In this document: piece by piece, positions 1 through 44,423 of the stretch
Layout: the number at the start of each line of letters is the position of its first letter
Position numbering within the stretch: position 1 is the stretch's first letter
Assembly (NCBI GenBank): GCA_949743265.1
Contig: CATJSX010000176.1
Span: forward strand, 1 to 46,132
Length of the DNA: 46,132 bases
DNA from: an uncultured Peptococcaceae bacterium
GTDB lineage: Bacteria > Bacillota > Peptococcia > Peptococcales > Peptococcaceae
Reading direction: 5' to 3'
Made by a program: the position numbers and the translations under genes
Notes under the pieces: model-generated
Told to the model about the DNA's origin: nothing
The model's database searches: none
The model's input: the letters and a program-made list of their open reading frames with translations, nothing else

Positions 1-612
1 CAAAAAATCGGTTGGGTTTCCAGTTCTTTTTTTGATAAATACTTGTCATGGGAATCGGCATTATCTATCGTCCTATCTGGTGTCAGTGGTACTTTGAGCA
101 TGAGCAGGGCTATTACGGATAACGATGTCAAACGCGCTCTGGCACTATTGCGTCAGCTACGACTGGGAAAGAAAATCGACCAACCTTTTGCCTTGATGAG
201 CAAAGGCGAACGTCAATGCGTGCTGATTGCTCGTGCGTTAGTCAGCCAACCAGAAATTTTGATTTTAGACGAGCCGAGTACGGGGCTAGATATTTACGCC
301 CGTGAATACATTTTGACAGCAGTAGATGATTTGGCGCGCCATACAGATATGACTATCATCTATGTCACCCATTATATTGAAGAAATCTTGCCGTCATTTG
401 ACAAAACTATGCTGATGAAAGACGGTCAAATTTATGCTCAAGGCGTGACATCTGATATGCTTAGCGATGATTTATTTACTAGCTTTCTTAATTATCCTGT
501 ACATATCAGCCGCGATATTGACGGTTACTGGCAAGCGAAACTGGCGGTAGAAGCTACTTTTCGCAACGACAGCGCATTTACCAGCAGTCAAGGAGGGTCA
601 ATCAATGGCTAA
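1..612 (+). CDS. Soluble ABC-type ATPase, 5' end outside the window
   Basis: The reading frame is open from base 1, so the N-terminus including Walker A is missing; 203 residues are visible. They hold an ABC signature with the variant MSKGERQ near residue 66, Walker B ILILDEPSTGLD near 86-97 and the switch histidine in YVTHY near 124. The first residues (IGWVSSSFFD) are identical to a stretch in the ATPase at 14908-15738, so the two are paralogues. No membrane-spanning partner is encoded beside it, so a cytosolic role like that of ModF/YlmA-type ATPases fits better than transport. It overlaps the next gene by 8 bases (ATGGCTAA), which implies translational coupling. The function is unknown; the ATPase fold is certain. 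Confidence 0.9.
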   Translation, partial: QKIGWVSSSFFDKYLSWESALSIVLSGVSGTLSMSRAITDNDVKRALALLRQLRLGKKIDQPFALMSKGERQCVLIARALVSQPEILILDEPSTGLDIYAREYILTAVDDLARHTDMTIIYVTHYIEEILPSFDKTMLMKDGQIYAQGVTSDMLSDDLFTSFLNYPVHISRDIDGYWQAKLAVEATFRNDSAFTSSQGGSING

Positions 613-1612
613 AAATACCTTCACCGCTTACCAACGCACCAAAGAAAAGTTTGATGCGTTGCGCGAAGACGCATCCATGTATTTTGAGAATAACAAAGAT
701 TTAGTGGCCGCCTCCGAATTCGAAGCCGCTATGGCGTTGGGCTGTTTTGATAAGGAGTTTATGTATTTTGCTACCGCTTATCAGGAAAATAACATCACTG
801 CTTATCGTGTCAGCTCTAAAGAAATCAATTTGCAAAAATTTGTTGAGCAAGCCGTTACTGAAAGTTTGTATCCTACGCCAGTAAAACGTTTTATCAAACG
901 CACGCCATGCCCATCTGGTCAAGAAAGCGCTATCCGGCGGCAGATTAAAATCGAATCTGCCAAAACGTTAAGCAAAATTTATCCTGCTGCTTATTTTGAG
1001 GCGCTGGCGAAACTTAGCGGCATAGAAGCCTCCAACAGCGCCTATTCTCTTTTAAGCGATTGGCGAGATGAGTTGGACGGCGTATATGACATTGAACGGT
1101 TAGCGCTATTTCAGAGCTTGCTCTTAAATGCACTGGAAAGCAAAGTTTTGACTGTCAAAAGTTATCTGACATTTGCCACATGGCTTAAAGAGATTTACAA
1201 ACAATTAGAAGATGATATTATTGCTAAAGGCTTGTACAAAAAAATTCTTAGCGGCTTTGCTTATACACAAGACAAAATAACTTGGCAGTACTTTTATGAC
1301 GCTAAACTGGAAGTTACTTATAACGAAAAAGCTAGTAAAGAACAGCAAGGCTATTGGGTTACACCTATTTTTACTCGTGAAAAGTGGCTGCGGGATATGA
1401 GTGAATTTCGTGCAATGCGCGAAAAATTTATTGCCGATTTTCGCCAATATTGCACAAATGGCTATCTAAAGCGTTTTTTAGCGATTAAAGATTTGCCTGG
1501 TGTCATCAATCGTGAAACCTTTGAAACACAACTCTCAGCTGTCGCTGCCCAATGCCCGCCAGAAGCTGTTGTCACTTTTACTAGCTACTATCAAAAATGG
1601 AACGTTCGTTGA
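605..1612 (+). CDS. Uncharacterised partner protein of the ABC ATPase, copy 1
   Basis: A 335-residue soluble protein with no signal peptide, membrane segment or motif that I recognise. The ATG at 605 has a strong AGGAGGG site and overlaps the stop of the ATPase gene. It is alignable along its length with the protein at 13492-14475. Shared landmarks are a YPTP/FPTP motif after about 95 residues, a following amphipathic stretch containing (I/L)YPA or MYPA, an RD(E/D)L..... (D/E)xER segment, and a similar C-terminal half. Because both copies sit next to a paralogous ATPase, the two proteins probably act together. No catalytic residues can be proposed from sequence alone. Confidence 0.85.
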   Translation: MAKNTFTAYQRTKEKFDALREDASMYFENNKDLVAASEFEAAMALGCFDKEFMYFATAYQENNITAYRVSSKEINLQKFVEQAVTESLYPTPVKRFIKRTPCPSGQESAIRRQIKIESAKTLSKIYPAAYFEALAKLSGIEASNSAYSLLSDWRDELDGVYDIERLALFQSLLLNALESKVLTVKSYLTFATWLKEIYKQLEDDIIAKGLYKKILSGFAYTQDKITWQYFYDAKLEVTYNEKASKEQQGYWVTPIFTREKWLRDMSEFRAMREKFIADFRQYCTNGYLKRFLAIKDLPGVINRETFETQLSAVAAQCPPEAVVTFTSYYQKWNVR

Positions 1613-9052: not shown

Positions 9053-10087
9053 TTAAGGTCGCTTAAAGGATATTGGTTTAAACCGCTGTTGTTTGAGATG
9101 TACCGAAGGGGCTTTAAATGATGGCGTTTTCAGATTGAAAAAATTCTTACCATTAAAATGTTGCTGCGCTACAGTTGGCGCGACACTGTTTTTGGGTCGA
9201 AAGAAAGCAAAAGATGGCAATTTTGGCGCATTTAGTTTGAATTGACTTAAAGGGTTTTGCATCAACAAACGATCAATTGATGAAAAAGCATGGTTTTGTG
9301 AAGTAGAATGAGTTTTGCTGATGGTTTGTTTTGGCGGCTGAGCGTTTAAATAATTGATAAATTCAATATTTCCCGGCAGCATCAAGCCTTGTTCACGCTG
9401 TGGAAATAAATACGTGCTGTTGATATTTGGCAGTTCTAAAGAGCGTTGACGCAGTTTTTGCCAAGTACTTTGATTTTCATAAGTATACGCTAAAGCGTCT
9501 TCCAAATCGCGAGCATATTCTAAAGCGTTGGCTCGTGAAAATGGATTCAGCAAGTCTTCGCCTTTTTGGGCGAAAGTCAAAAAAGCTTCCAATAATTGCC
9601 GAAAAGTATTATAGCTGAAAGCTGAAACGATAGGTATCGGTCGCAAGCGGCGCTCATGCATGGATTCATCGGAAAGCTTATCATTAGCGCGGGGTGTCGT
9701 CATGTAGCGAATTTCTGGTACAGCAACAATTTGATAATCTTCACCAATATCCAAAATTTGCAACAGTTTTTGGCGACTGGTTGGGTCAGGATTAACGATG
9801 GTTGCTTCCATTAAACTATTGGTATCCAAAGCGTTATATTCCAGTGCATTAAGCCAAAGAGCAAAATATTTGCTGAAAATATCCAAAGAACTGGTCGTAT
9901 TTAACCGCATAACGGCTGATAAACTTTGAGGAGAAGAAACGAGAAACTCTAATTCATCATCATCATAAATGCAAGTAGAATGTTGAGCAATGGCATACTT
10001 TAACGGTTCACGCCATTGTTCGTCAATCAAATACTCGCCGGATAATAATTCGATGAGATACTCTTGCTGCCCTCTTGATAATTCCAT
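9053..10087 (-). CDS. Uncharacterised protein with basic, aromatic C-terminal tail
   Basis: A 344-residue protein that I do not recognise. The ATG at 10087 is preceded by AGAGGTG at good spacing; longer in-frame starts lack a ribosome site. Residues 1-235 look globular and helical, rich in Leu, Glu and Asp. From about residue 255 the protein changes into a low-complexity tail of Lys, Arg, Phe, Pro and Ser with recurring short units such as APKLPSF, TPSFKAPS and FKPISFKRP. Such tails often bind nucleic acid, membrane or a partner and are usually disordered. No signal peptide or membrane helix. It follows a LysR gene on the same strand after 121 bases and may be co-transcribed with it. Confidence 0.75.
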   Translation of the reverse strand: MELSRGQQEYLIELLSGEYLIDEQWREPLKYAIAQHSTCIYDDDELEFLVSSPQSLSAVMRLNTTSSLDIFSKYFALWLNALEYNALDTNSLMEATIVNPDPTSRQKLLQILDIGEDYQIVAVPEIRYMTTPRANDKLSDESMHERRLRPIPIVSAFSYNTFRQLLEAFLTFAQKGEDLLNPFSRANALEYARDLEDALAYTYENQSTWQKLRQRSLELPNINSTYLFPQREQGLMLPGNIEFINYLNAQPPKQTISKTHSTSQNHAFSSIDRLLMQNPLSQFKLNAPKLPSFAFFRPKNSVAPTVAQQHFNGKNFFNLKTPSFKAPSVHLKQQRFKPISFKRP

Positions 10088-10208
10088 AAAGAACACCTCT
10101 TTCATAAAGGTAGCGCAAAGCAGCGCCTTTTTCTTCAACATATGCGTTAGAAAAAGATTTGGTGAATGAGAGTTTAACATTTGATGGCGTTGTTTTAAAA
10201 ACGACAGT

Positions 10209-11138
10209 TCATTTTTCAAAAGAGTTGTTAGGATAATAATCCAGCACACTAATTTTTTGGATGTATTGACTGGTAAAACGAACAACTGCTTTTTCAGCAG
10301 TATTTAAAACATGCTTGGCGCTGTGTACGATATAAATAGGCGTCAATTGCATCGGCTCATAAGGCAACAATATAATATCAGGATAAACGGCATAAATGCC
10401 GGCGCGAATATAAGCTGGTACAACACAAATAGAATGATTGTGAATCACACTATCCAAATGTTGATAAATATTGGACGAAGTAAATAAAGTGTGCGTATCG
10501 TCAAAATTGCTGCGCCATGAATTTTCGGCAGGATAAATGGTTTTTAGCTCATGGGCGATATCCTCTTTGTTCAGCGCACGCTTACGGGCCAACGGAGAAT
10601 CTTTATTAACGCAAAAACAAGCAGCGGTATCGCCGATATGATAAAAAACTAAATTTGGCTCCGTAATGGAAAGGGTTGAATTGATAATCAAATGCAAAAA
10701 TGGCGATTGGTAAAGTTCCTGAGCAGAATCATTATAAGCGTTTTCTACGCAAGTCAGGTTAACTGCTGGATAGTTGCTGTTGATACGACGAATAAAATCA
10801 TTAAGAAACAACGAGAAAAAGAACGGAAAAGAAATTTTGCAGCTGCCTTGTATCTGTTCACTATGCTCAAGTGTCGGCAATGATTTCAAGTAGAAATAAC
10901 TTTGCATCTCTCGATAATCAGTAACAATTTTTTCAGCATAACGCAAAAAAATCTCACCGTCTTTGGTCAACTCAATTCCTGAAGAAGTGCGTTCCAGAAG
11001 TTGAGTATTCAAGTTCTTTTCAAAAGCAATAACAACGCGGCTTAGATGCTGTTGAGAAATAAATAATTTTTGAGCGGCTTTGTTGATAGATTTGTTGTCA
11101 GCAATGACGATAAAGTAATATAAATGCTCAATATTCAT
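10209..11138 (-). CDS. LysR-family regulator, divergent from the phosphatase-superfamily gene
   Basis: A 309-residue LysR-type regulator. The helix-turn-helix lies at about residues 14-40 (DNKSINKAAQKLFISQQHLS), followed by the family's LLERTSSGIELTKDG and an effector-binding domain. It is divergent from the enzyme gene at 11343 across a 204-base gap carrying an imperfect 26-base palindrome, the classical arrangement for a LysR protein that controls its neighbour and itself. The same arrangement recurs at 39815-42896. The inducer is unknown. Confidence 0.93.
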   Translation of the reverse strand: MNIEHLYYFIVIADNKSINKAAQKLFISQQHLSRVVIAFEKNLNTQLLERTSSGIELTKDGEIFLRYAEKIVTDYREMQSYFYLKSLPTLEHSEQIQGSCKISFPFFFSLFLNDFIRRINSNYPAVNLTCVENAYNDSAQELYQSPFLHLIINSTLSITEPNLVFYHIGDTAACFCVNKDSPLARKRALNKEDIAHELKTIYPAENSWRSNFDDTHTLFTSSNIYQHLDSVIHNHSICVVPAYIRAGIYAVYPDIILLPYEPMQLTPIYIVHSAKHVLNTAEKAVVRFTSQYIQKISVLDYYPNNSFEK

Positions 11139-11342: not shown

Positions 11343-13376
11343 ATGAGTGAAAAATTGACTTCAAAAGTTTTTGTTTGCGGCGTCGACGCTATGGACCCTC
11401 GTTTAACCAGAAAGTATATCGACATGGGACTAATGCCTAACGCCAAAAAAATGCTGGAAAAAGGAGCGGCTCGTCAAGATTTGGTGATGTTGGGCGCTAT
11501 GCCTACCGTTACGCCGCCACAATGGACCACAATGGCTACTGGCGCATATCCGCAAACACACGGAATTACATCTTTTTATCGTTTAGGCGGTGAAATGGAT
11601 TTAATCAACTTGAATTTAGATTCTCGTTTGTGTAAAGCAGAACAGTTATGGAATGTTACCGCTGAAGCAGGTTATAACACATTAGTTTGGCATTGGCCGG
11701 GCAGTGCATGGCCGCCAAGCTCTGACAGCCCTAATTTGACGGTAGTCGATGGCAGTTCTCCAGGCAGCGTTAATATGAGTACTGCTCAAATCGACGGTGA
11801 ATATTTAGTTATTGCCAGCGTAGATAACTCTCGTTTAGCTTTCCGTACTGGTGAAAGCAATGGTAGTAATGTGCCTTGCGTTATTACTGGTTTAGAAGAA
11901 GATGACTCTACCGGCAAAAGTGGCGGCTGGGGCGACGCTTTTGATCCAGAAGCTGCTGCTAAAAGCAAAGGTTTCCCAATGTATATCATTGATCCGCAAA
12001 CAAACGGACAAGGCGGCTATATCGATAGAGCTATCGACATTGCTTTTTCACCAATCAAAGATGCTGAAGGCTGGGCAGAAGCTCCAGAAGGCGCTAAAGA
12101 ATTTACTTTATTGTTATCAGCCGGTCTGGTTCGCCGTCCTGTTTTGATTTTGAAAAACGGCGAAGGCAAATACGATCGTATTGCTATTTACAAAAACAAA
12201 AAATCTTTAAAACCAATGGCTACTATTGCTAACGGCGAATATTTCCGCGACTATATGGACGATGCTATCAAAAAAGAAGTTCCAGTTCCATCTAATCGTG
12301 ATTTGCGCGTCTTAGAATTAAGAGAAGACGGTAGTTTCGTTAAAATGTGGGTTTCTGCTTCTATGGACGCTACCGTTCATACAATGTGGCATCCAGCAGC
12401 TTTATATCAAGAAATCTTGGATAATGTCGGTTTCCCACCACCAACTTCTACTTTGGGCGGCGGCAACAAACAGCTAATTCTGCAGTGTATGAATGCTTGC
12501 TGGGATCATACCTTAGATTGGCAGAGCGCAGCATTGCTCTACATGATTGAAAAGAAAGGCGTAGAAGTTATTTTCTCCCATTTCCATGCGCCAGATTTGC
12601 AAAAACATATGTTTATCCGTGAAATGAAACGCGGTCGCAAAGAAACAACGCCAGAAGATTATGAAGAAATCATGCAAACAATCTACAAACAAGTAGACCG
12701 TTATTTAGGCAAATTCGTTCATTTATTGGACGAAGGCTGGACCATCATGGTTGTTTCCGACCATGCGCAAGTTTGCCCGACTCATGGCATCAGAGGCTTG
12801 GGCGACATGGGCTTAAACTGCCAGTTAATGGAAGAATTAGGCTTTACAACATTAAAAACCGATGAAAACGGTAATAAATTGCCACAAGTAGATTGGAGCA
12901 AAACAAAAGCTGTTGCTATCAGAGAAATGCATATCTACTTGAATTTGATTGGTCGTACCGATCATGGTATCGTTGATCCAAAAGACCAATATCAATTGGA
13001 AGAAGAAATTATTACAGCGCTCTATGGTCATAAAGATCCTATTACTCACCAAAGAATTATTGCTTTCGCATTGCGTCGTAAAGACGCTGTATTGGTCGGC
13101 TTAGGTGGCGATTATCCTGAATGCGGCGATATTATTTATTGCATGGCAGAAGGGTATGAACACGATCATGACGACAGTATGCCAACATCTTTAGGTGAAT
13201 GCGGAACTTCAGTGTCACCGATTTTCTTTGCCGCAGGCGCTGGCTTGAAGCAAAATATGTACACCGACCGTATGATTCGTCAGGTAGACGTTGCACCGAC
13301 TATTGCTACTATGCTGGACGTTAGAATGCCGGCTCAATGTGAAGGTGCACCTGTTTATCAAATCTTAGCTAAATAG
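11343..13376 (+). CDS. Alkaline-phosphatase-superfamily phosphodiesterase/phosphatase, copy 1
   Basis: A 677-residue metal-dependent hydrolase of the type I phosphodiesterase/nucleotide pyrophosphatase group. Near the N-terminus GVDAMDP carries a metal-binding Asp (15 or 18). PTVTPPQWTTMATG contains the probable nucleophile Thr57, matching the TFPNHxTxxTG pattern of NPP enzymes. THGI follows. Further on, HFHAPDLQKH, VVSDHAQ and a late EHDHDD...TSVSP region carry the other metal ligands. No signal peptide, so it should be cytosolic. The substrate could be a nucleotide, phosphonate, sugar-phosphate or sulfate ester. Strong AGGAGGAAAA ribosome site. A paralogue lies at 40905-42896. Confidence 0.88.
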   Translation: MSEKLTSKVFVCGVDAMDPRLTRKYIDMGLMPNAKKMLEKGAARQDLVMLGAMPTVTPPQWTTMATGAYPQTHGITSFYRLGGEMDLINLNLDSRLCKAEQLWNVTAEAGYNTLVWHWPGSAWPPSSDSPNLTVVDGSSPGSVNMSTAQIDGEYLVIASVDNSRLAFRTGESNGSNVPCVITGLEEDDSTGKSGGWGDAFDPEAAAKSKGFPMYIIDPQTNGQGGYIDRAIDIAFSPIKDAEGWAEAPEGAKEFTLLLSAGLVRRPVLILKNGEGKYDRIAIYKNKKSLKPMATIANGEYFRDYMDDAIKKEVPVPSNRDLRVLELREDGSFVKMWVSASMDATVHTMWHPAALYQEILDNVGFPPPTSTLGGGNKQLILQCMNACWDHTLDWQSAALLYMIEKKGVEVIFSHFHAPDLQKHMFIREMKRGRKETTPEDYEEIMQTIYKQVDRYLGKFVHLLDEGWTIMVVSDHAQVCPTHGIRGLGDMGLNCQLMEELGFTTLKTDENGNKLPQVDWSKTKAVAIREMHIYLNLIGRTDHGIVDPKDQYQLEEEIITALYGHKDPITHQRIIAFALRRKDAVLVGLGGDYPECGDIIYCMAEGYEHDHDDSMPTSLGECGTSVSPIFFAAGAGLKQNMYTDRMIRQVDVAPTIATMLDVRMPAQCEGAPVYQILAK

Positions 13377-13416
13377 TAAATAAGATTTTGGGTTGTTTTG
13401 ATGAGCACCCCGCTCT

Positions 13417-13454
13417 ACCCGGTTGATTGATGATCATTCATCAGTCAACCGGGT
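13417..13454 (+). terminator. Long hairpin between the enzyme gene and the second ATPase module
   Basis: A 17-base-pair stem with one G-U pair (13417-13433 with 13438-13454) and a TCAT loop. It is followed by AAAATTATATTATT rather than a run of T, so it may terminate weakly and allow read-through into the next operon. Confidence 0.55.
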
Positions 13455-13491
13455 AAAATTATATTATTCGATAAATGAAAGGACTGATATT

Positions 13492-14475
13492 TTGGAGCAA
13501 TATCGTTTGGGGCAATACAATGCCACCGCAATTTTGCGTGACGAACAAGTCGCTCAAGAAATCAGAAGTATGGCGGCGCTAGGCAAATTTCCTAAAGAAA
13601 TCACCGTTTATGGTCTAGTCTATTACTGTGACGATGAGCGAAAATATATGATCAGCGCTGATTCAGGCAAATTGATCGCTTTTTTGAACGAAACAGCTAA
13701 TACAGAATTTTTTCCAACGCCTATCGAACACTATTCCAAGCGGTTAGCGATTCCCGAAGGTTATGAAGAAGAAGTGGTACAATCTATCAAATTAGAGATG
13801 GCCAAAAAGTTACAGCAGATGTATCCAGCAGAAGCATTTGCTTTGCTGAAAGCATTTGCCCCCCAAATTAGCAATGATACTTTAGATAAAGAATTATTTG
13901 CTTATCGTGATGATTTGGAAAGCGAATTTGATAAAGAAAGAATTAACGCATTTTTGGCGCTTTGCAGCAAGGCCTATATTAGAAAAAATCTATCGTCTTA
14001 CGGCTATCGCCAATTAGTCGATTGGTGCCATAAGCGATTACGCCAATTAGAAAGCTACATACCGCCCAGCAGCAATCGAGAAAAGCGCTTCTATGGCATG
14101 GTAGCCATCGATACAAACGGCGATAAAAAATGTTGTATCAATGGTAATTTGACCTGCATTTATGAAGAAAAGAGCAAATTAGAAGTGCAGTATGATTATG
14201 TCAGCATTTGGCACCAAATCGCTTATGACCTTGATAATTTCTCTGATTTGCGAGCCGTACAACAAAAAATGCAGACAGATTTATTGACTATTTACGATTC
14301 CAAAATGATTGCCTTAATGAAAATGATTGAACAAGCGCCCAGCGTTGTAAAAACTGACACGTATAAAGAATTATTAGATAAACTGAAAAATTATGGCGAG
14401 AAGCCGCTGTCTTTAGGAAAATATTATGGCAGAAGCTGGGGCATAACGTCAAAAACAGAGGAGGTCGAGTCATGA
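13492..14475 (+). CDS. Uncharacterised partner protein of the ABC ATPase, copy 2
   Basis: A 327-residue protein paralogous to the one at 605-1612. The shared FPTP, MYPA and RDDLESEFDKER landmarks occur in the same order. TTG at 13492 is chosen because AAAGGA precedes it by eight bases; the frame is open upstream but runs through the terminator hairpin. No signal peptide, membrane helix or catalytic motif is visible. A late segment with paired Cys (KKCCINGNLTC) is absent from copy 1. It overlaps the zinc-ribbon gene by 4 bases (ATGA), which places it in one operon with the ribbon protein and the ATPase. Confidence 0.82.
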   Translation: MEQYRLGQYNATAILRDEQVAQEIRSMAALGKFPKEITVYGLVYYCDDERKYMISADSGKLIAFLNETANTEFFPTPIEHYSKRLAIPEGYEEEVVQSIKLEMAKKLQQMYPAEAFALLKAFAPQISNDTLDKELFAYRDDLESEFDKERINAFLALCSKAYIRKNLSSYGYRQLVDWCHKRLRQLESYIPPSSNREKRFYGMVAIDTNGDKKCCINGNLTCIYEEKSKLEVQYDYVSIWHQIAYDLDNFSDLRAVQQKMQTDLLTIYDSKMIALMKMIEQAPSVVKTDTYKELLDKLKNYGEKPLSLGKYYGRSWGITSKTEEVES

Positions 14476-14915
14476 ATTTCGATTATCAAAGTCAAAAGCG
14501 TATTGATATTTTAAAAGATAGGGTGAAGCGCTGTGTCTGCAAATCTTGCGGCAGTAAATTGAGTCTTAGGCAAATTGATTTTAATGATTTTGAAGAATCT
14601 CGTATTGAGATTTTCTGTGATCATTGCGATCGTTTGGAATTTGGTATAGAAGCAGAAATTTATACCAGCGCTGAATTTTACGTTGATGAATTTAAGGTCA
14701 ATTTTTATCCCGATATGGGAAATAATGCCTTGACAAGACGGATGAATGTTGCCAAGATTTGCGAGATTTTGGCGTGGGGATTGGAAAATATGGGCTATTT
14801 AGAAAAGGCAGGTTTTAAAGTAAAACCGGATATGAGCGCTAAAATGTTGGGAGAATGCGTCGTTCTCGACGATCATGCCGTTGCTGTTTTGGATAAGGAG
14901 TTTGCCGATGAATAA
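14472..14915 (+). CDS. Small zinc-ribbon protein of the ATPase module
   Basis: A 147-residue protein with an N-terminal zinc ribbon formed by CVCKSC (about residues 21-26) and CDHC (about 49-52). Its C-terminal half is acidic and helical. No family name is recognised. The gene overlaps its upstream neighbour by 4 bases and the ATPase gene by 8 (ATGAATAA at 14908-14915). The first module at the left edge has no counterpart in view, although one could lie outside the window. It may be an adaptor or substrate-recognition subunit. Confidence 0.8.
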   Translation: MNFDYQSQKRIDILKDRVKRCVCKSCGSKLSLRQIDFNDFEESRIEIFCDHCDRLEFGIEAEIYTSAEFYVDEFKVNFYPDMGNNALTRRMNVAKICEILAWGLENMGYLEKAGFKVKPDMSAKMLGECVVLDDHAVAVLDKEFADE

Positions 14916-15738
14916 AGAAAGCGATTATATTATCGAAGCCAGCGAGCTAACATTTCAAGTTGGCGAAAATAATTTGCTTAGTCGTGTTAATTTTAATGTA
15001 AAAAAAGGGGAACATTGGCTTCTCTATGGCATGAACGGCTGTGGTAAAACCACTCTATTGAGTATTATTGCTGGTTATCGTCGTCAGACAGAGGGACGGC
15101 TAAAAGTGTTTGGCGAAGAATTTTCCAACGATAATATTTTAGCCACTCGTAAACGCATTGGCTGGGTAAGCAGTTCTTTCTTTGATGATCGATATAAACG
15201 GGAGCGAGTACTGGATATTGTATTAGCAGGCAAAACGGGCACTTATGGTTTGGGATTGGAACTGACCAGTGCTGACTATCGTCGGGCAAATCGTTTGTTA
15301 AAAGAATTAGGTTTAGAAGATAAAAGTCCCTATAGTTATTGCCAGCTTTCCAAAGGACAGCGACAAAATGTGCTCATTGCCAGAGCTTTTATGAATAAAC
15401 CAGAAATTTTGCTTCTGGATGAGCCTTGCTCTGGTCTGGATGTTTTAGCGCGCGTTCGATTCATTGATATGTTAAAAAATATTATGGATCATACGGATAT
15501 TACCGTAATTTTTGTCGCTCATGAATTAAACCAACTAAAGGATTTATTCAGTCATACGCTTTTGCTGCGCAATGGTTATGTTTTTGCCCAAGGGCAAACC
15601 GAGGAAATGTTTCAGGAAGCAAAATTGTCATCGTTTCTAAAACAGAAAATTTTGCTGATGGACATTGTCGAAACAGAAATTCAAACGCCAACCGATTATA
15701 GTGGTATTGATTTATCACTCTTTTTGTCACAAGCATAA
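14908..15738 (+). CDS. Soluble ABC-type ATPase, copy 2
   Basis: A 276-residue ATPase complete with Walker A GMNGCGKTT (41-49), signature LSKGQRQ (147-153), Walker B ILLLDEPCSGLD (167-178) and switch His205. The ATG at 14908 follows AAGGAG at seven bases; an earlier in-frame ATG (14875) lacks such a site. It resembles ModF/YlmA-type ABC ATPases, but no permease lies nearby. The IGWVSSSFFD segment at 84-93 is shared exactly with the truncated ATPase at the left edge. About 60 residues follow the ATPase core and could bind the partner protein. Confidence 0.92.
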   Translation: MNKESDYIIEASELTFQVGENNLLSRVNFNVKKGEHWLLYGMNGCGKTTLLSIIAGYRRQTEGRLKVFGEEFSNDNILATRKRIGWVSSSFFDDRYKRERVLDIVLAGKTGTYGLGLELTSADYRRANRLLKELGLEDKSPYSYCQLSKGQRQNVLIARAFMNKPEILLLDEPCSGLDVLARVRFIDMLKNIMDHTDITVIFVAHELNQLKDLFSHTLLLRNGYVFAQGQTEEMFQEAKLSSFLKQKILLMDIVETEIQTPTDYSGIDLSLFLSQA

Positions 15739-39814: not shown

Positions 39815-40708
39815 TTATGAGATATGTTCACAAAAGAGCTTTATATAAGACATTTTTTCTACGGAATCCAAATTTTGAATATAACCTATGCTGGAAAATA
39901 TCTTATCCTTTAAAGGATGCGCTATCAAAGATGTTCCTAAATTATAAAATGGCGCTGTAGAAATTTGTGTATAAAGAGCATAGCCTAAACCGTCTTCTAA
40001 TAATTGATTATATAACATCTCATTGTCAGAATAAATGACAGAATCAATACCATAATACCGCAATATACGATAAGGAAGATAATCATCTAAATTTTCATCT
40101 AATGTCAACAAAATTGCCGGATATGCTGCTAGTTGCTCAAAAGATAGGGCAGTATATTTATTTAAAGGATGTTTTTTGCATACAACGACAGAAAAAGATA
40201 AATGCATGATCGGTGTAAAAGGTAGAGCGATTTTTTCACGAAAATCGTTTTCCTCATTGATGAATAACATCGAAAAAAATCCCAAATCAAGTGAAGAATT
40301 TTTCAATTGATCAATGATCATTGAAGAAGACATCGTAGAAATATCTAGTTGAACATTGGGAAGATTTTTATAAAAATAGCTGATGCTTTTAGGAAGTAAA
40401 TGGCGCACAACTACTGGAACAGCACCGATTTTTAAGCATATCTCTTCTTTATTTTGTACTAGAAAATGTAAAGTTATATCCTCTAATTTATCTAAAATTT
40501 TTGTGACTTCAGCTAACAAATATTCTCCAGACGAGGTCAGTTCAACGCCGCGAGAAGTGCGTAAAAAAAGGGACACATGCAGTTCGTTTTCGAGTTTTTT
40601 AATAGCTACACTTAAAGCTTGTTGCGAAATATAAAGTTGTCGGCTAGCTTCGGTAATGGAACCTACTTCTGCTAATTTTTTAAAATAAGTTAACTGTTCT
40701 AAACGCAT
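39815..40708 (-). CDS. LysR-family regulator, divergent from phosphatase-superfamily copy 2
   Basis: A 297-residue LysR-type regulator. The helix-turn-helix (EVGSITEASRQLYISQQALSV) is at about residues 14-34 and is followed by SLFLRTSRGVELTSSG. It is divergent from the enzyme gene at 40905 across about 195 bases containing a spaced inverted repeat. The layout mirrors the LysR/enzyme pair at 10209-13376. The most likely targets are the enzyme and the transporter that follows it. Confidence 0.93.
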   Translation of the reverse strand: MRLEQLTYFKKLAEVGSITEASRQLYISQQALSVAIKKLENELHVSLFLRTSRGVELTSSGEYLLAEVTKILDKLEDITLHFLVQNKEEICLKIGAVPVVVRHLLPKSISYFYKNLPNVQLDISTMSSSMIIDQLKNSSLDLGFFSMLFINEENDFREKIALPFTPIMHLSFSVVVCKKHPLNKYTALSFEQLAAYPAILLTLDENLDDYLPYRILRYYGIDSVIYSDNEMLYNQLLEDGLGYALYTQISTAPFYNLGTSLIAHPLKDKIFSSIGYIQNLDSVEKMSYIKLFCEHIS

Positions 40709-40803
40709 ATCTTTTCCTCCTTTTTATTTAATATATCAGAAACGACAACACTTTACAAGCAAATGTTCGTCCTCAACTGCTATTTGTGGATTGAAGGCAT
40801 ATT

Positions 40804-40839
40804 TTGAAATAAAAACTGATTTTATAAAAATTATTTCAA
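40804..40839. promoter_or_regulatory. Spaced inverted repeat, candidate LysR operator
   Basis: TTGAAATAA (40804-40812) and its exact complement TTATTTCAA (40831-40839), 18 bases apart. The right arm ends three bases before the TACAAT -10 box, so it covers the -35 region. Confidence 0.5.
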
Positions 40840-40848
40840 TGATACAAT
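40840..40848 (+). promoter_or_regulatory. Extended -10 promoter of phosphatase-superfamily copy 2
   Basis: TGATACAAT: TACAAT at 40843-40848 with a TG extension. The -35 position reads TTTTAT, a poor match, so activation by the LysR protein is plausible. Confidence 0.5.
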
Positions 40849-40904
40849 AGGTTTAGAACGAAAAGACAACATTATAAAATTATTACTTAGGGAGGTTATT
40901 TTTG

Positions 40905-42896
40905 ATGAAACGAAATGCATTAACAGAAAAAATTATTGTCTTGGGAGTTGACGGCATGGATCCCAGGTTGACCAAGAAGTATCTGTCAATGGGCATTATG
41001 CCTAATGTGCAAACATTACTAACACGAGGTGTTGCTAGAGAAGATTTAGTATTATTGGGTGGACAGCCTACTGTAACGCCGCCAATGTGGACGACTTTAG
41101 CAACTGGCGCTTATCCAGTAACGCACGGAATTACTTGTTTTAATGGACAAGGCAGCAATATTGACGAAACGGTGTACAATATTGATTCACGTCGCTGTAA
41201 AGCGGAGCCTCTTTGGAATGTATTTGCTGAAGCTGGCAAAAAAACACTTGTGTGGCATTGGCCCGGTTCTTCTTGGCCACCAACCAGTGATAGCCCTAAT
41301 TTATCGGTAGTAGACGGTCTGACTCCTGCTGTAGTCAATTCTTTTGCTCAGATTTGCGGAGAATCATTAATTATGGCTAATACTAATGTAAAAGAAATTA
41401 CTTTTCAAGAAAAAGCCGCTTCTGATAGTAATATACCGTGTGTTATTGATAATCAAAAAGATCAAAGAGATAGTGGTACCAATATGGGTGCTACCGGATT
41501 GATCTTACGTCCAGAAGACGGAGAACATGCGCTGAGTACAACGCCTTTTGACGTCGCTTTATCTCCTATTACGGCACCTCATGGATGGGATATAGAAACA
41601 ACGGGAAACTTAGAATGTGTTTTGTTATTTTCTAACGGCATGGTTCGCCGTCCGGCACTAATTTTAGCTGATAACGATGGAAAATACAGCCAAGTTGCGA
41701 TATATCGCTCAAAAAAAGATCACGAACCATTACTTGTTTTGGATAAGAATGTATTTTATGCTGATATCGTAGATGATGGCTTTCGCGGAGAAGAGAAAAT
41801 ACGCGCTTCACGACATATGCGTATTTTGGAATTAGCAGAAGATGGCAAAAGATTAAAAATATGGGTATCTCCTCTGATGAATATTGATTATGATGAACTT
41901 TTTCATCCACGAGAATTATACTACGATGTGATAACACATTGTGGTTATGCAAAACCCCATTCTTTGGTTGGCGGCGGCGATAAACAACTAATCGAAGATT
42001 GCATGAGTGTGACATGGGATCTTGTTTGTCAGTGGTATGCTGATGCCATTAATTATCTGATAGAAAATCATCAATATGAGATTATTTTTTCACATTTGCA
42101 CAATATTGATCTGCAAGGTCATATGTTGATTAAACATTTAAAAGACCATGGCAAAAACAAATTAACCGAAGAAGAGTATGAGCTTTTGGTTCGTCGTATG
42201 TATACACAAACCGATGAGTATATCGGCAAATTTCTTCATTTACTTGATGAAAATTGGACAATTTTGCTCGTTTCTGATCATGCCGCTGTCGCCTCTGAAT
42301 ATGAACCGCTTTTGATGGGTGACTGCACGGGTATCAACGTTCGTTTGATGGAAGAATTAGGCTTTACAGTATTAAAAAAAGATGAAAATGGCAAAGATTT
42401 GTATGAAATTGATTGGGATAATACTAAAGCTGTAGCACCAAGAGGAAATCATATTTATTTAAATATCAAAGGTCGCCAGCCATATGGTATCGTTGATACC
42501 AAAGATCAGTATGAACTGGAAGAAGAAATTATCACTGCATTATATGGTTATAAACATCCCCAAAGCGGTAAACGTGTTATTGCGTTGGCTTTGCGTAACC
42601 GAGATGCTATATTGCTTGGTATGGGGGGAGCCGAATCTGGAGATATAATTTATTGGAATGCAGAAGGCTATAATTATGATCATTGCGATTCATTATCAAC
42701 TACTTTAGGATATGGCGACACATCAGTATCTCCTATTTTCATAGGTGCAGGTAAAGGGTTGAAAGCTGGTTATAAAACGGAACGTATTATTCGTATGGTT
42801 GATATCGCTCCAACAATGGCAGTTTTAGGCGGTGTGCGCATGCCTAGAGCATGTGAAGGAGCGCCGATTTATCAAGTTTTAGCCGAAGAATATTAA
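40905..42896 (+). CDS. Alkaline-phosphatase-superfamily phosphodiesterase/phosphatase, copy 2
   Basis: A 663-residue paralogue of the enzyme at 11343-13376, alignable end to end. Shared blocks are GVDGMDPRLTKKYLSMGIMP, TVTPPMWTTLATG (nucleophile Thr in VTPP), VWHWPGS, FSHLHNIDLQGH, LVSDHA and TSVSPIFIGAG. The metal-ligand Asp/His set appears complete. ATG at 40905 is favoured over TTG three bases earlier because GGAGG is nine bases upstream of the ATG. No signal peptide. An SLC13-type transporter follows on the same strand, so the substrate or product may be taken up by that carrier. Confidence 0.88.
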   Translation: MKRNALTEKIIVLGVDGMDPRLTKKYLSMGIMPNVQTLLTRGVAREDLVLLGGQPTVTPPMWTTLATGAYPVTHGITCFNGQGSNIDETVYNIDSRRCKAEPLWNVFAEAGKKTLVWHWPGSSWPPTSDSPNLSVVDGLTPAVVNSFAQICGESLIMANTNVKEITFQEKAASDSNIPCVIDNQKDQRDSGTNMGATGLILRPEDGEHALSTTPFDVALSPITAPHGWDIETTGNLECVLLFSNGMVRRPALILADNDGKYSQVAIYRSKKDHEPLLVLDKNVFYADIVDDGFRGEEKIRASRHMRILELAEDGKRLKIWVSPLMNIDYDELFHPRELYYDVITHCGYAKPHSLVGGGDKQLIEDCMSVTWDLVCQWYADAINYLIENHQYEIIFSHLHNIDLQGHMLIKHLKDHGKNKLTEEEYELLVRRMYTQTDEYIGKFLHLLDENWTILLVSDHAAVASEYEPLLMGDCTGINVRLMEELGFTVLKKDENGKDLYEIDWDNTKAVAPRGNHIYLNIKGRQPYGIVDTKDQYELEEEIITALYGYKHPQSGKRVIALALRNRDAILLGMGGAESGDIIYWNAEGYNYDHCDSLSTTLGYGDTSVSPIFIGAGKGLKAGYKTERIIRMVDIAPTMAVLGGVRMPRACEGAPIYQVLAEEY

Positions 42897-42904
42897 TCAT
42901 AGGA

Positions 42905-42939
42905 GAGAATTTCGCTGAAAATTTTTCTGCGAAATTCTC
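42905..42939 (+). other. Hairpin in the enzyme-transporter gap
   Basis: GAGAATTTCGC pairs perfectly with GCGAAATTCTC, 13-base loop. No T-run follows (AAAATGG), so it is more likely a messenger stabiliser or partial attenuator than a terminator. Confidence 0.5.
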
Positions 42940-42965
42940 AAAATGGCTTATATGGAGGGGTTTTT

Positions 42966-44423
42966 ATGCTAAATGAATCAACGAAAAAGAAAATTGCTAT
43001 TTCCTATATTCATTTTACGATAATGTGTTTGATTATGTTCGGTTTTCGTTTTATCCCGCCATTTTTATCTGTGACACCAGTGGGCATGACAGTGTTGGGA
43101 GCATTTTTAGGATGGCTGTATGGGGTTTGTTTTTCAGATATGTGTCTTGCTTCTTTATTGGGATTTATCGCTATTAGTCTTACAGGAATTATGCCCATTG
43201 CGGACTACTATAAAGCCGGTTTTGGCAACGAAACGGTTATCTTAATTATCTTTGGTATGTTCTTTCTGGGAGGATTAATTGCCAAATTTGATCTCACCAA
43301 TCTTTTGCTTAAAAAAATTTTCCAAATCAAATTTCTTTATAAAAAACCTTGGATTTTGTCAGGCGGGCTACTGATCTTGGCGTACTTTACTTGCGTTTTC
43401 ACTAATCCTTACATCGTTGTTTTGTTTTTTTATCAAATAGTTATTACGATCAGCCAGAAAGCGGATTTCAAACCCTTTTCTATGTGGCCGTCCATGATGA
43501 TTATTGGCAGCACTATATTAGCTAGTATGGCAATTATAGGTATGCCTTATCAAGGAACTGTACTACTTTTTATGGGAATCTTTAGCGGCGTTATGGGTGA
43601 GATGGCGATAGGATGGGGAGCTTACATGCTTTGGGTAAATCTAATCGTTATTATAGGAATAGTTGCATATCTTATCGCTTGTCGTTTTATTTTTAGAGCG
43701 GATATTTCAGCGTTGAATGATTTGGACGCTTCATTCTTTGGTGAAGCTGAAAAAGCTACTAAAGAGCAAAAAATTGCTTTAAGCCTAATGGCACTATTTG
43801 TATGCTTATTATTAGGATTTGGTTTTGTACCAGAAAGTTGGTTTATAAAATCTTACCTAAATGCTATTGGATTAGCGGGGTTAGTCATGTTTTGTATTAT
43901 TCTTGCTAATATTATTCACGTGGACAATAAGCCGTTTATCGGTTTTATTGAAATGGCAGTTAATGGTATACAATGGAATGTATTTTTATTAACGGCTTTT
44001 TCTATTCCTCTGATGACGATATTGACTAATCAAGAAACCGGAATCATGGCTTCTTTAACAGCTGTACTGACTCCTGTATTAAATGGACATTCTCCCTTTG
44101 TCTTTATTATCATCGTTTTAATTGTTAGCGTCATTCTGACCAACTGTTTAAATAATATGGTGGTTATCATGATTATGATACCCGTTTTATGCGGCTACGC
44201 TATGGAAATGAATTTGAACCCTGCTTTGCTCATTACTATGTTAATTATTACTGGCTATTTGGCTATTTTATTACCAGCTGGTTCGCCATTAACAGCGATT
44301 ATGTTTAGCTATAAGGAATGGGTGAACTTGAAAACTGTTTGGCTTTATGGCGGATTGATTTTAGTTATTTGGCTTTTGACTATGCTAATAGTTGGCATTC
44401 CTTTGGGAAATTGGTTATTTTAA
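42966..44423 (+). CDS. SLC13/CitT-like anion transporter
   Basis: A 485-residue membrane protein with about 11-12 hydrophobic segments. It resembles the SLC13/DASS or ArsB-type ion-transporter superfamily: paired halves each have a re-entrant region, with TNPYIVV in the first half and TNCLNNMVVIM in the second (Thr-Asn motifs like the SNT/SNA substrate and sodium sites). GAGGGG precedes the ATG. It follows the phosphatase-superfamily gene by 69 bases and lies in the same operon. A dicarboxylate, sulfate or organic-acid substrate is plausible; it could import the enzyme's substrate. Confidence 0.82.
   Translation: MLNESTKKKIAISYIHFTIMCLIMFGFRFIPPFLSVTPVGMTVLGAFLGWLYGVCFSDMCLASLLGFIAISLTGIMPIADYYKAGFGNETVILIIFGMFFLGGLIAKFDLTNLLLKKIFQIKFLYKKPWILSGGLLILAYFTCVFTNPYIVVLFFYQIVITISQKADFKPFSMWPSMMIIGSTILASMAIIGMPYQGTVLLFMGIFSGVMGEMAIGWGAYMLWVNLIVIIGIVAYLIACRFIFRADISALNDLDASFFGEAEKATKEQKIALSLMALFVCLLLGFGFVPESWFIKSYLNAIGLAGLVMFCIILANIIHVDNKPFIGFIEMAVNGIQWNVFLLTAFSIPLMTILTNQETGIMASLTAVLTPVLNGHSPFVFIIIVLIVSVILTNCLNNMVVIMIMIPVLCGYAMEMNLNPALLITMLIITGYLAILLPAGSPLTAIMFSYKEWVNLKTVWLYGGLILVIWLLTMLIVGIPLGNWLF

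Follow-up and report, generated by a model that had tools for sequence, protein, structure and literature searches.

What does a small zinc-ribbon protein do when it is encoded between a partner protein of an undescribed family and a soluble ABC ATPase, directly downstream of a phosphodiesterase? The window that raises this question is the whole contig G000:C176:1-46132 of an uncultured Peptococcaceae bacterium (46,132 nucleotides), and the components of the locus, from now on referred to as PAR (partner protein), ZnR (zinc-ribbon protein), ABC ATPase and PDE (phosphodiesterase), are as follows.

10209-11138, minus strand: LysR-type regulator, divergent from the PDE (PF00126 and PF03466)
11343-13376, plus strand: class A type I PDE of the alkaline phosphatase superfamily (PF01663, E 3.3e-25), proposed client of the module
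13416-13455, plus strand: perfect hairpin of 18 pairs separating PDE from PAR and resembling a terminator or attenuator (z -5.8)
13492-14475, plus strand: PAR, 327 amino acids (open reading frame)
14472-14915, plus strand: ZnR, 147 amino acids (open reading frame with the pattern CxCx2C...Cx2C)
14908-15738, plus strand: soluble ABC ATPase, 276 amino acids, ModF/YlmA-like (PF00005, E 1.4e-31)
39815-44423: second set of LysR (minus strand), class A PDE (plus strand, 40902-42896) and CitMHS-type permease (plus strand), without a module

The three plus-strand module genes lie exactly where a preliminary description of this DNA had placed them, with the PAR stop codon (14473-14475) overlapping the ZnR ATG at 14472 by 4 bases and the ZnR stop codon (14913-14915) following the ATPase ATG at 14908 with an overlap of 8 bases. 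The overlaps had been read as translation of the three genes as a unit; however, each gene has its own Shine-Dalgarno-like sequence (AAAGGA for PAR, AGGAGG for ZnR and AAGGAG for the ATPase), so that translational coupling is plausible rather than proven. The most likely PAR start is the TTG at 13492, which has AAAGGA a few bases 5' of it, an alternative in-frame TTG being located at 13423. Hairpins of other sequence are found at the same position between PDE and PAR in the two orthologous loci, L051 and L052, and the PDE and the PAR-ZnR-ABC genes are therefore probably expressed in separate amounts. An additional minus strand open reading frame of 410 amino acids (9053-10285), which has no Pfam match, carries a long 5' extension overlapping the end of the LysR open reading frame.

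The ATPase is a member of the ABC family (PF00005) and contains the Walker A (GMNGCGKT), signature (LSKGQRQ) and Walker B (ILLLDEP) motifs, its nearest solved chains being 2ihy and 4hzi. Its Q-loop motif, IGWVSSSFFD, recurs with variations in virtually all module ATPases, and the Q-loop glutamine, which contacts the membrane domains in transporters, is replaced by serine throughout. Based on these motifs, the protein is predicted to be catalytically complete but to lack the Q-loop glutamine that marks a transporter subunit. Among the neighboring open reading frames that were scanned, a part of the total, no ABC membrane subunit was recognized beside module ATPases, and the permeases tested were of the CitMHS/DASS or MFS type. 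The closest sequences are soluble ABC ATPases of the ModF/YlmA type, of which 2ihy has the same VS-type Q-loop without glutamine. The score against the ModF family (NF008186) is 117.9 bits, below the cut-off of 459; ModF is a two-domain protein, unlike the module ATPase, and has no known ZnR, PAR or PDE. A literature search on ModF/YlmA returned unrelated papers only. A role in defense was dropped because the PADLOC hits of the ATPase (mad3, mad8, AriA and PtuA) are generic matches to the ATPase core and ZnR and PAR are unmatched.

ZnR had been described as a ribbon protein, which holds and can be stated more exactly as CxCx2C...Cx2C: C21, C23, C26, C49 and C52 are invariant among 39 aligned homologues and include the two Cys-x2-Cys knuckles C23/C26 and C49/C52 expected of a zinc ribbon. 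In its AF2 model (pLDDT 90.9), residues 16-57 superpose weakly on the Rpb9 and NudC ribbons (Z about 2.5-2.8, about 2 A). PAR, which represents an undescribed family, consists of two diverged copies of a unit formed by a β-β-α-β element plus helices. Its halves align in hhalign with a probability of 96.3 (E 1.9e-9), compared with 0.6 for a control segment, pointing to an internal duplication; the AF2 model has a pLDDT of 87.6. Neither protein matched a family over the cut-off in Pfam, NCBIfam, PHROGs and PADLOC scans, nor did their profiles match PDB sequences. Foldseek returned nothing at E <= 0.001, either for ZnR against the PDB or for PAR against the PDB and viral models. A second structural look yielded only short, low-Z matches, for ZnR to the Rpb9 and NudC ribbons and for PAR to crystal-protein helices and the BioW N-terminal domain; the missing whole-fold match for ZnR or PAR is not proof of a new fold.

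A further copy of the module, referred to as module 1, lies at the start of the window.

1-612, plus strand: ABC ATPase of module 1 (PF00005), 5' end missing as the contig starts inside the gene
605-1612, plus strand: PAR of module 1, with a ZnR gene expected upstream of the contig edge

No other place in the assembly yielded the missing N-terminus of this ATPase. Modules 1 and 2, the latter being the complete one, share 42% identity in the ATPase and 26% in PAR. Based on these two copies, it had been proposed that an ATPase-partner pair was duplicated within the window and that one copy gained ZnR and specialized. This reading is highly improbable. As the contig begins inside the module 1 ATPase, module 1 says nothing about the presence of a zinc ribbon, and ZnR is located within about 2 kb of 41 of the 47 PAR genes in related genomes, a count obtained by comparing places by eye and unbiased by the ZnR-based fetching of loci. 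Among the six PAR genes without a nearby ZnR, three (module 1, G015:C168 and G017:C114) start no more than about 700 bases from the contig start and two (G015:C80 and G017:C5) lack the PAR N-terminus, the sixth being G011:C221. The second module thus does not "add" ZnR. Further, the ATPase tree places module 2 as sister to the L051/L052 modules of other gut MAGs (100/100 support), far from module 1, which is nearest by path to the C11 module of the same genome; many deep forks of this tree are open. The two copies in the window are old paralogues and did not arise by local duplication. The shared IGWVSSSFFD segment had been taken to link them; the sharing and the paralogy of the ATPases are correct, but a motif found across the family marks the family and implies no special link between the two copies. 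A shared history of ATPase and partner, which the preliminary description had put forward for testing, is borne out: across 26 complete modules, ATPase, ZnR and PAR distances correlate at 0.67-0.75 (0 of 2000 permutations as high), indicating that the three have evolved together as a co-inherited unit with the same history.

The genome encodes about 12 modules. Close ATPase matches number 13, among them the copy cut off by the contig edge and a homologue outside any module (C152), and there are 11 intact ZnR genes, a decayed ZnR remnant at G000:C141:22184-22467 and six full PAR genes. One module is apparently split over two contigs, with the ATPase at the start of C126 and ZnR at the end of C27; in the tree, the C126 ATPase has as its sister the ATPase of L076, a locus with adjacent ABC and ZnR genes. 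A short, diverged PAR-like gene (L089, G000:C33, 5365-6129) adjoins a PDE and a permease and has neither ABC nor ZnR beside it.

Both ZnR and PAR were found in all 13 sampled genomes of the gut Peptococcaceae-type family and in none of the 8 sampled elsewhere in the order. Among 398 genomes sampled across the phylum, ZnR occurred outside the family in one genome only (G361), in a PDE-PDE-ZnR-ABC-PAR locus where an aromatic-acid-type MFS transporter replaces the usual permease. Searching named genomes with the ZnR profile returned 27 loci, all from uncultured Peptococcaceae, Gracilibacteraceae or Clostridia MAGs, several of them from ruminant gut. The commonest gene order is ZnR-ABC-PAR, the PAR-ZnR-ABC order of the window being common to L051 and L052. 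ZnR and the ATPase form the core, PAR is optional and no other part of the family is as constant as ZnR.

What the module acts on is suggested by its neighbors. Among 40 ZnR-ABC modules, 35 have a neighboring PDE, while a LysR gene lies within 6 kb in 27 and a permease within 6 kb in 23; no PDE was found within the stretch fetched for the C11 and C158 modules. The link to the upstream PDE had not been raised in the preliminary description. Across the 13 genomes, the numbers of modules and PDEs are correlated (Spearman 0.91; 0.84 per Mb). ZnR and PDE distances correlate with r 0.70 (n=35; 0.65-0.75 over the sets tested), and within the window genome alone r is 0.79 (3 of 2000 permutations) for ZnR-PDE versus 0.26 for ZnR-ABC, in a set that takes in the C126/C27 module joined by inference. 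That the sequence of the cassette tracks the neighboring PDE suggests an ATP-driven helper for this enzyme; co-divergence of this kind can stem from linkage alone, LysR distances also correlating with ZnR (r 0.52-0.54).

Two other neighbors could be the target instead. The ATPase might power the adjacent citrate/dicarboxylate-type permease in the way ArsA powers ArsB, an idea favored by the frequency of the permease and by its membership in PF03600, which we take to belong to the same broad ion-transporter superfamily as ArsB. We consider this unlikely, since the permease is absent from 17 of the 40 modules and is exchanged for an MFS transporter in G361, many PDE-permease sets have no ATPase and the Q-loop glutamine is lost. 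The permease also shows the weakest co-divergence with ZnR, with r 0.32 compared with 0.75 for ZnR-PDE in the permease-bearing set (n=21). Similarly improbable is a regulatory module in which ZnR binds RNA polymerase, RNA or LysR and the ATPase adjusts how strongly the PDE locus is expressed, comparable to gene-regulatory ABC proteins. The low-Z resemblance to the N-terminal ribbon of Rpb9, the frequency and co-divergence (about 0.5) of LysR and the hairpins between PDE and module would all fit; however, zinc ribbons this small match many folds at such Z, the association with PDE class described below exceeds the link to LysR, and no nucleic-acid-binding domain was recognized in PAR. The PDE represents the best-supported client of the module.

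The residues that characterize the alkaline phosphatase superfamily, a Thr/Ser nucleophile and Asp/His metal ligands, are present in the PDE, with T57, D15, D418, H422, D473, H474 and H609 conserved in 52-54 of 54 homologues. A signal peptide is not apparent in the protein encoded at 11343-13376, which was taken as cytosolic. About 78 PDE paralogues of ~680 amino acids are encoded in the 3.04 Mb genome, often together with a LysR regulator and a CitMHS/DASS-type permease; about 5-36 copies are present in relatives from the family and few elsewhere in the order. Literature searches on this expansion or on the gut lineage found nothing relevant. About 69 of the 78 PDEs have no adjoining module, and PDEs also occur in other families of the order, where ZnR is lacking, so the module should not be needed for general PDE activity unless it acts in trans. 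The same numbers bear on another reading, metal delivery only, with ZnR supplying the PDE two-metal site with zinc and the ATPase driving release without any remodeling. Five invariant cysteines in ZnR and an intact two-metal site in the client are what this would require, but most PDEs of the genome do without a module and, to our knowledge, ordinary alkaline-phosphatase-superfamily enzymes take up metal without such helpers; we therefore regard it as a doubtful alternative.

On scoring against two reference sequences, PDEs separate into two main classes, A and B, with a few intermediates (e.g. L048|13933 and L061|1887). The nearest PDE is of class A in 21 of 22 PAR-bearing modules and of class B in all 12 PAR-less ones (Fisher 2.4e-8, a value uncorrected for phylogeny that overstates independence because the loci share ancestry). 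The one exception, L061, has an intermediate PDE on the opposite strand. Parsimony on the ATPase tree requires 5 changes of the PAR label, only 1 of them being forced by starred branches; L062 and C126 were scored as PAR-less in this count, though their PAR status is cut off. At L068, PDE-B/ABC/ZnR and PDE-A/ZnR/ABC/PAR are found side by side, each module with its own class. In the window genome, 6 of 7 class B PDEs have an adjoining module compared with about 3 of 69 in class A.

We propose, with a probability of roughly 45%, that the three proteins assist the co-encoded alkaline-phosphatase-superfamily PDE as a soluble, ATP-driven helper. The ATPase would dimerize on ATP like other soluble ABC proteins, without a membrane partner. 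ZnR would dock it on a particular PDE and be the source of specificity, and PAR, as a duplicated two-domain protein, may serve as an extra clamp required by class A and not by class B PDEs. Remodeling of the PDE, powered by ATP hydrolysis, would follow, either to open it to the exchange of substrate or product or to load its two-metal site. The gene unit, the families with their conservation and distribution, the PDE class association, the co-divergence and the intact catalytic residues of ATPase and PDE are shown by the sequences, whereas the physical complex, ZnR docking and ATP-driven remodeling or metal loading are inferred. The Q-loop serine and the gene set retained in G361 also favor the proposal; against it stand the many PDEs that have no module, the C11 and C158 modules, the terminator-like hairpin at this locus and its two orthologues, linkage as a possible source of the co-divergence and the lack of any structural match of ZnR or PAR hinting at function. 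A broader claim, put forward more tentatively, is that this is an undescribed ATP-driven activation machine for alkaline-phosphatase-superfamily enzymes, composed of a soluble ABC protein and two new families, in which ZnR encodes client choice and the retention or loss of a third subunit follows client class, the whole having expanded within a single gut lineage alongside its client paralogues, which number in the dozens.

The nearest working analogue, by analogy and not by membership, is the PhnK/PhnL pair, soluble ABC dimers that hydrolyze ATP to open up the core of C-P lyase, with rearrangement of its Zn site (PMC9947105). Like the module, PhnK/PhnL are soluble ABC proteins encoded with a cytosolic enzyme of phosphorus metabolism on which they act without a membrane partner (PMC9947105), action on the PDE being our proposal. 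The module differs in having one ABC protein instead of two, in the additional ZnR and PAR and in its putative client, an alkaline-phosphatase-superfamily enzyme; core genes for PhnGHIJ were not recognized at the loci, which were typed only for the module, PDE, permease and LysR families. On the enzyme side, phosphonoacetate hydrolase PhnA and nucleotide pyrophosphatases share the nucleophile threonine and metal ligands and are the nearest PDB and NCBIfam matches, and the LysR-enzyme-transporter layout of PhnA also occurs at PDE loci. However, similarity to PhnA is weak (30.2 bits for TIGR02335 versus a cut-off of 407.55, E 2.4e-7), and the PDE differs in length (about 680 versus about 410 amino acids), in its about 78 copies and in the ATPase module alongside. 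Soluble ATPases that act on partner proteins or a secondary carrier are also known from SufC/SufBCD and ArsA/ArsB, though ArsA, unlike the module ATPase, lies outside the ABC family and the loci contained no recognized homologues of Suf or Ars. Soluble ABC ATPases directed at an enzyme and not at a membrane are few, and we know of no alkaline-phosphatase-superfamily enzyme that needs an ATP-driven helper. With about 12 natural modules of two kinds in one genome, most of them adjoining a client candidate, client choice can be tested by swapping. The genome also offers a handle on two unannotated protein families and on the question of what maintains about 78 PDE paralogues in the 3 Mb of an uncultured gut lineage.

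Several minor features of the PDE loci were observed. Broken copies include a split PDE at L015 (1420-3443), adjoining the C13 module, and a multi-stop PDE at G000:C95. At L045 (G000:C27, 1293-6685), two enoate-reductase-like flavoprotein genes flank a permease with LysR genes nearby, which by eye resembles a parallel expansion of another enzyme family. Two other PDEs of G361 (L091 and L092, G361:C4) lie beside genes that by eye are ethanolamine/microcompartment-like and trimethylamine-type methyltransferase-like, a possible clue to PDE substrates.
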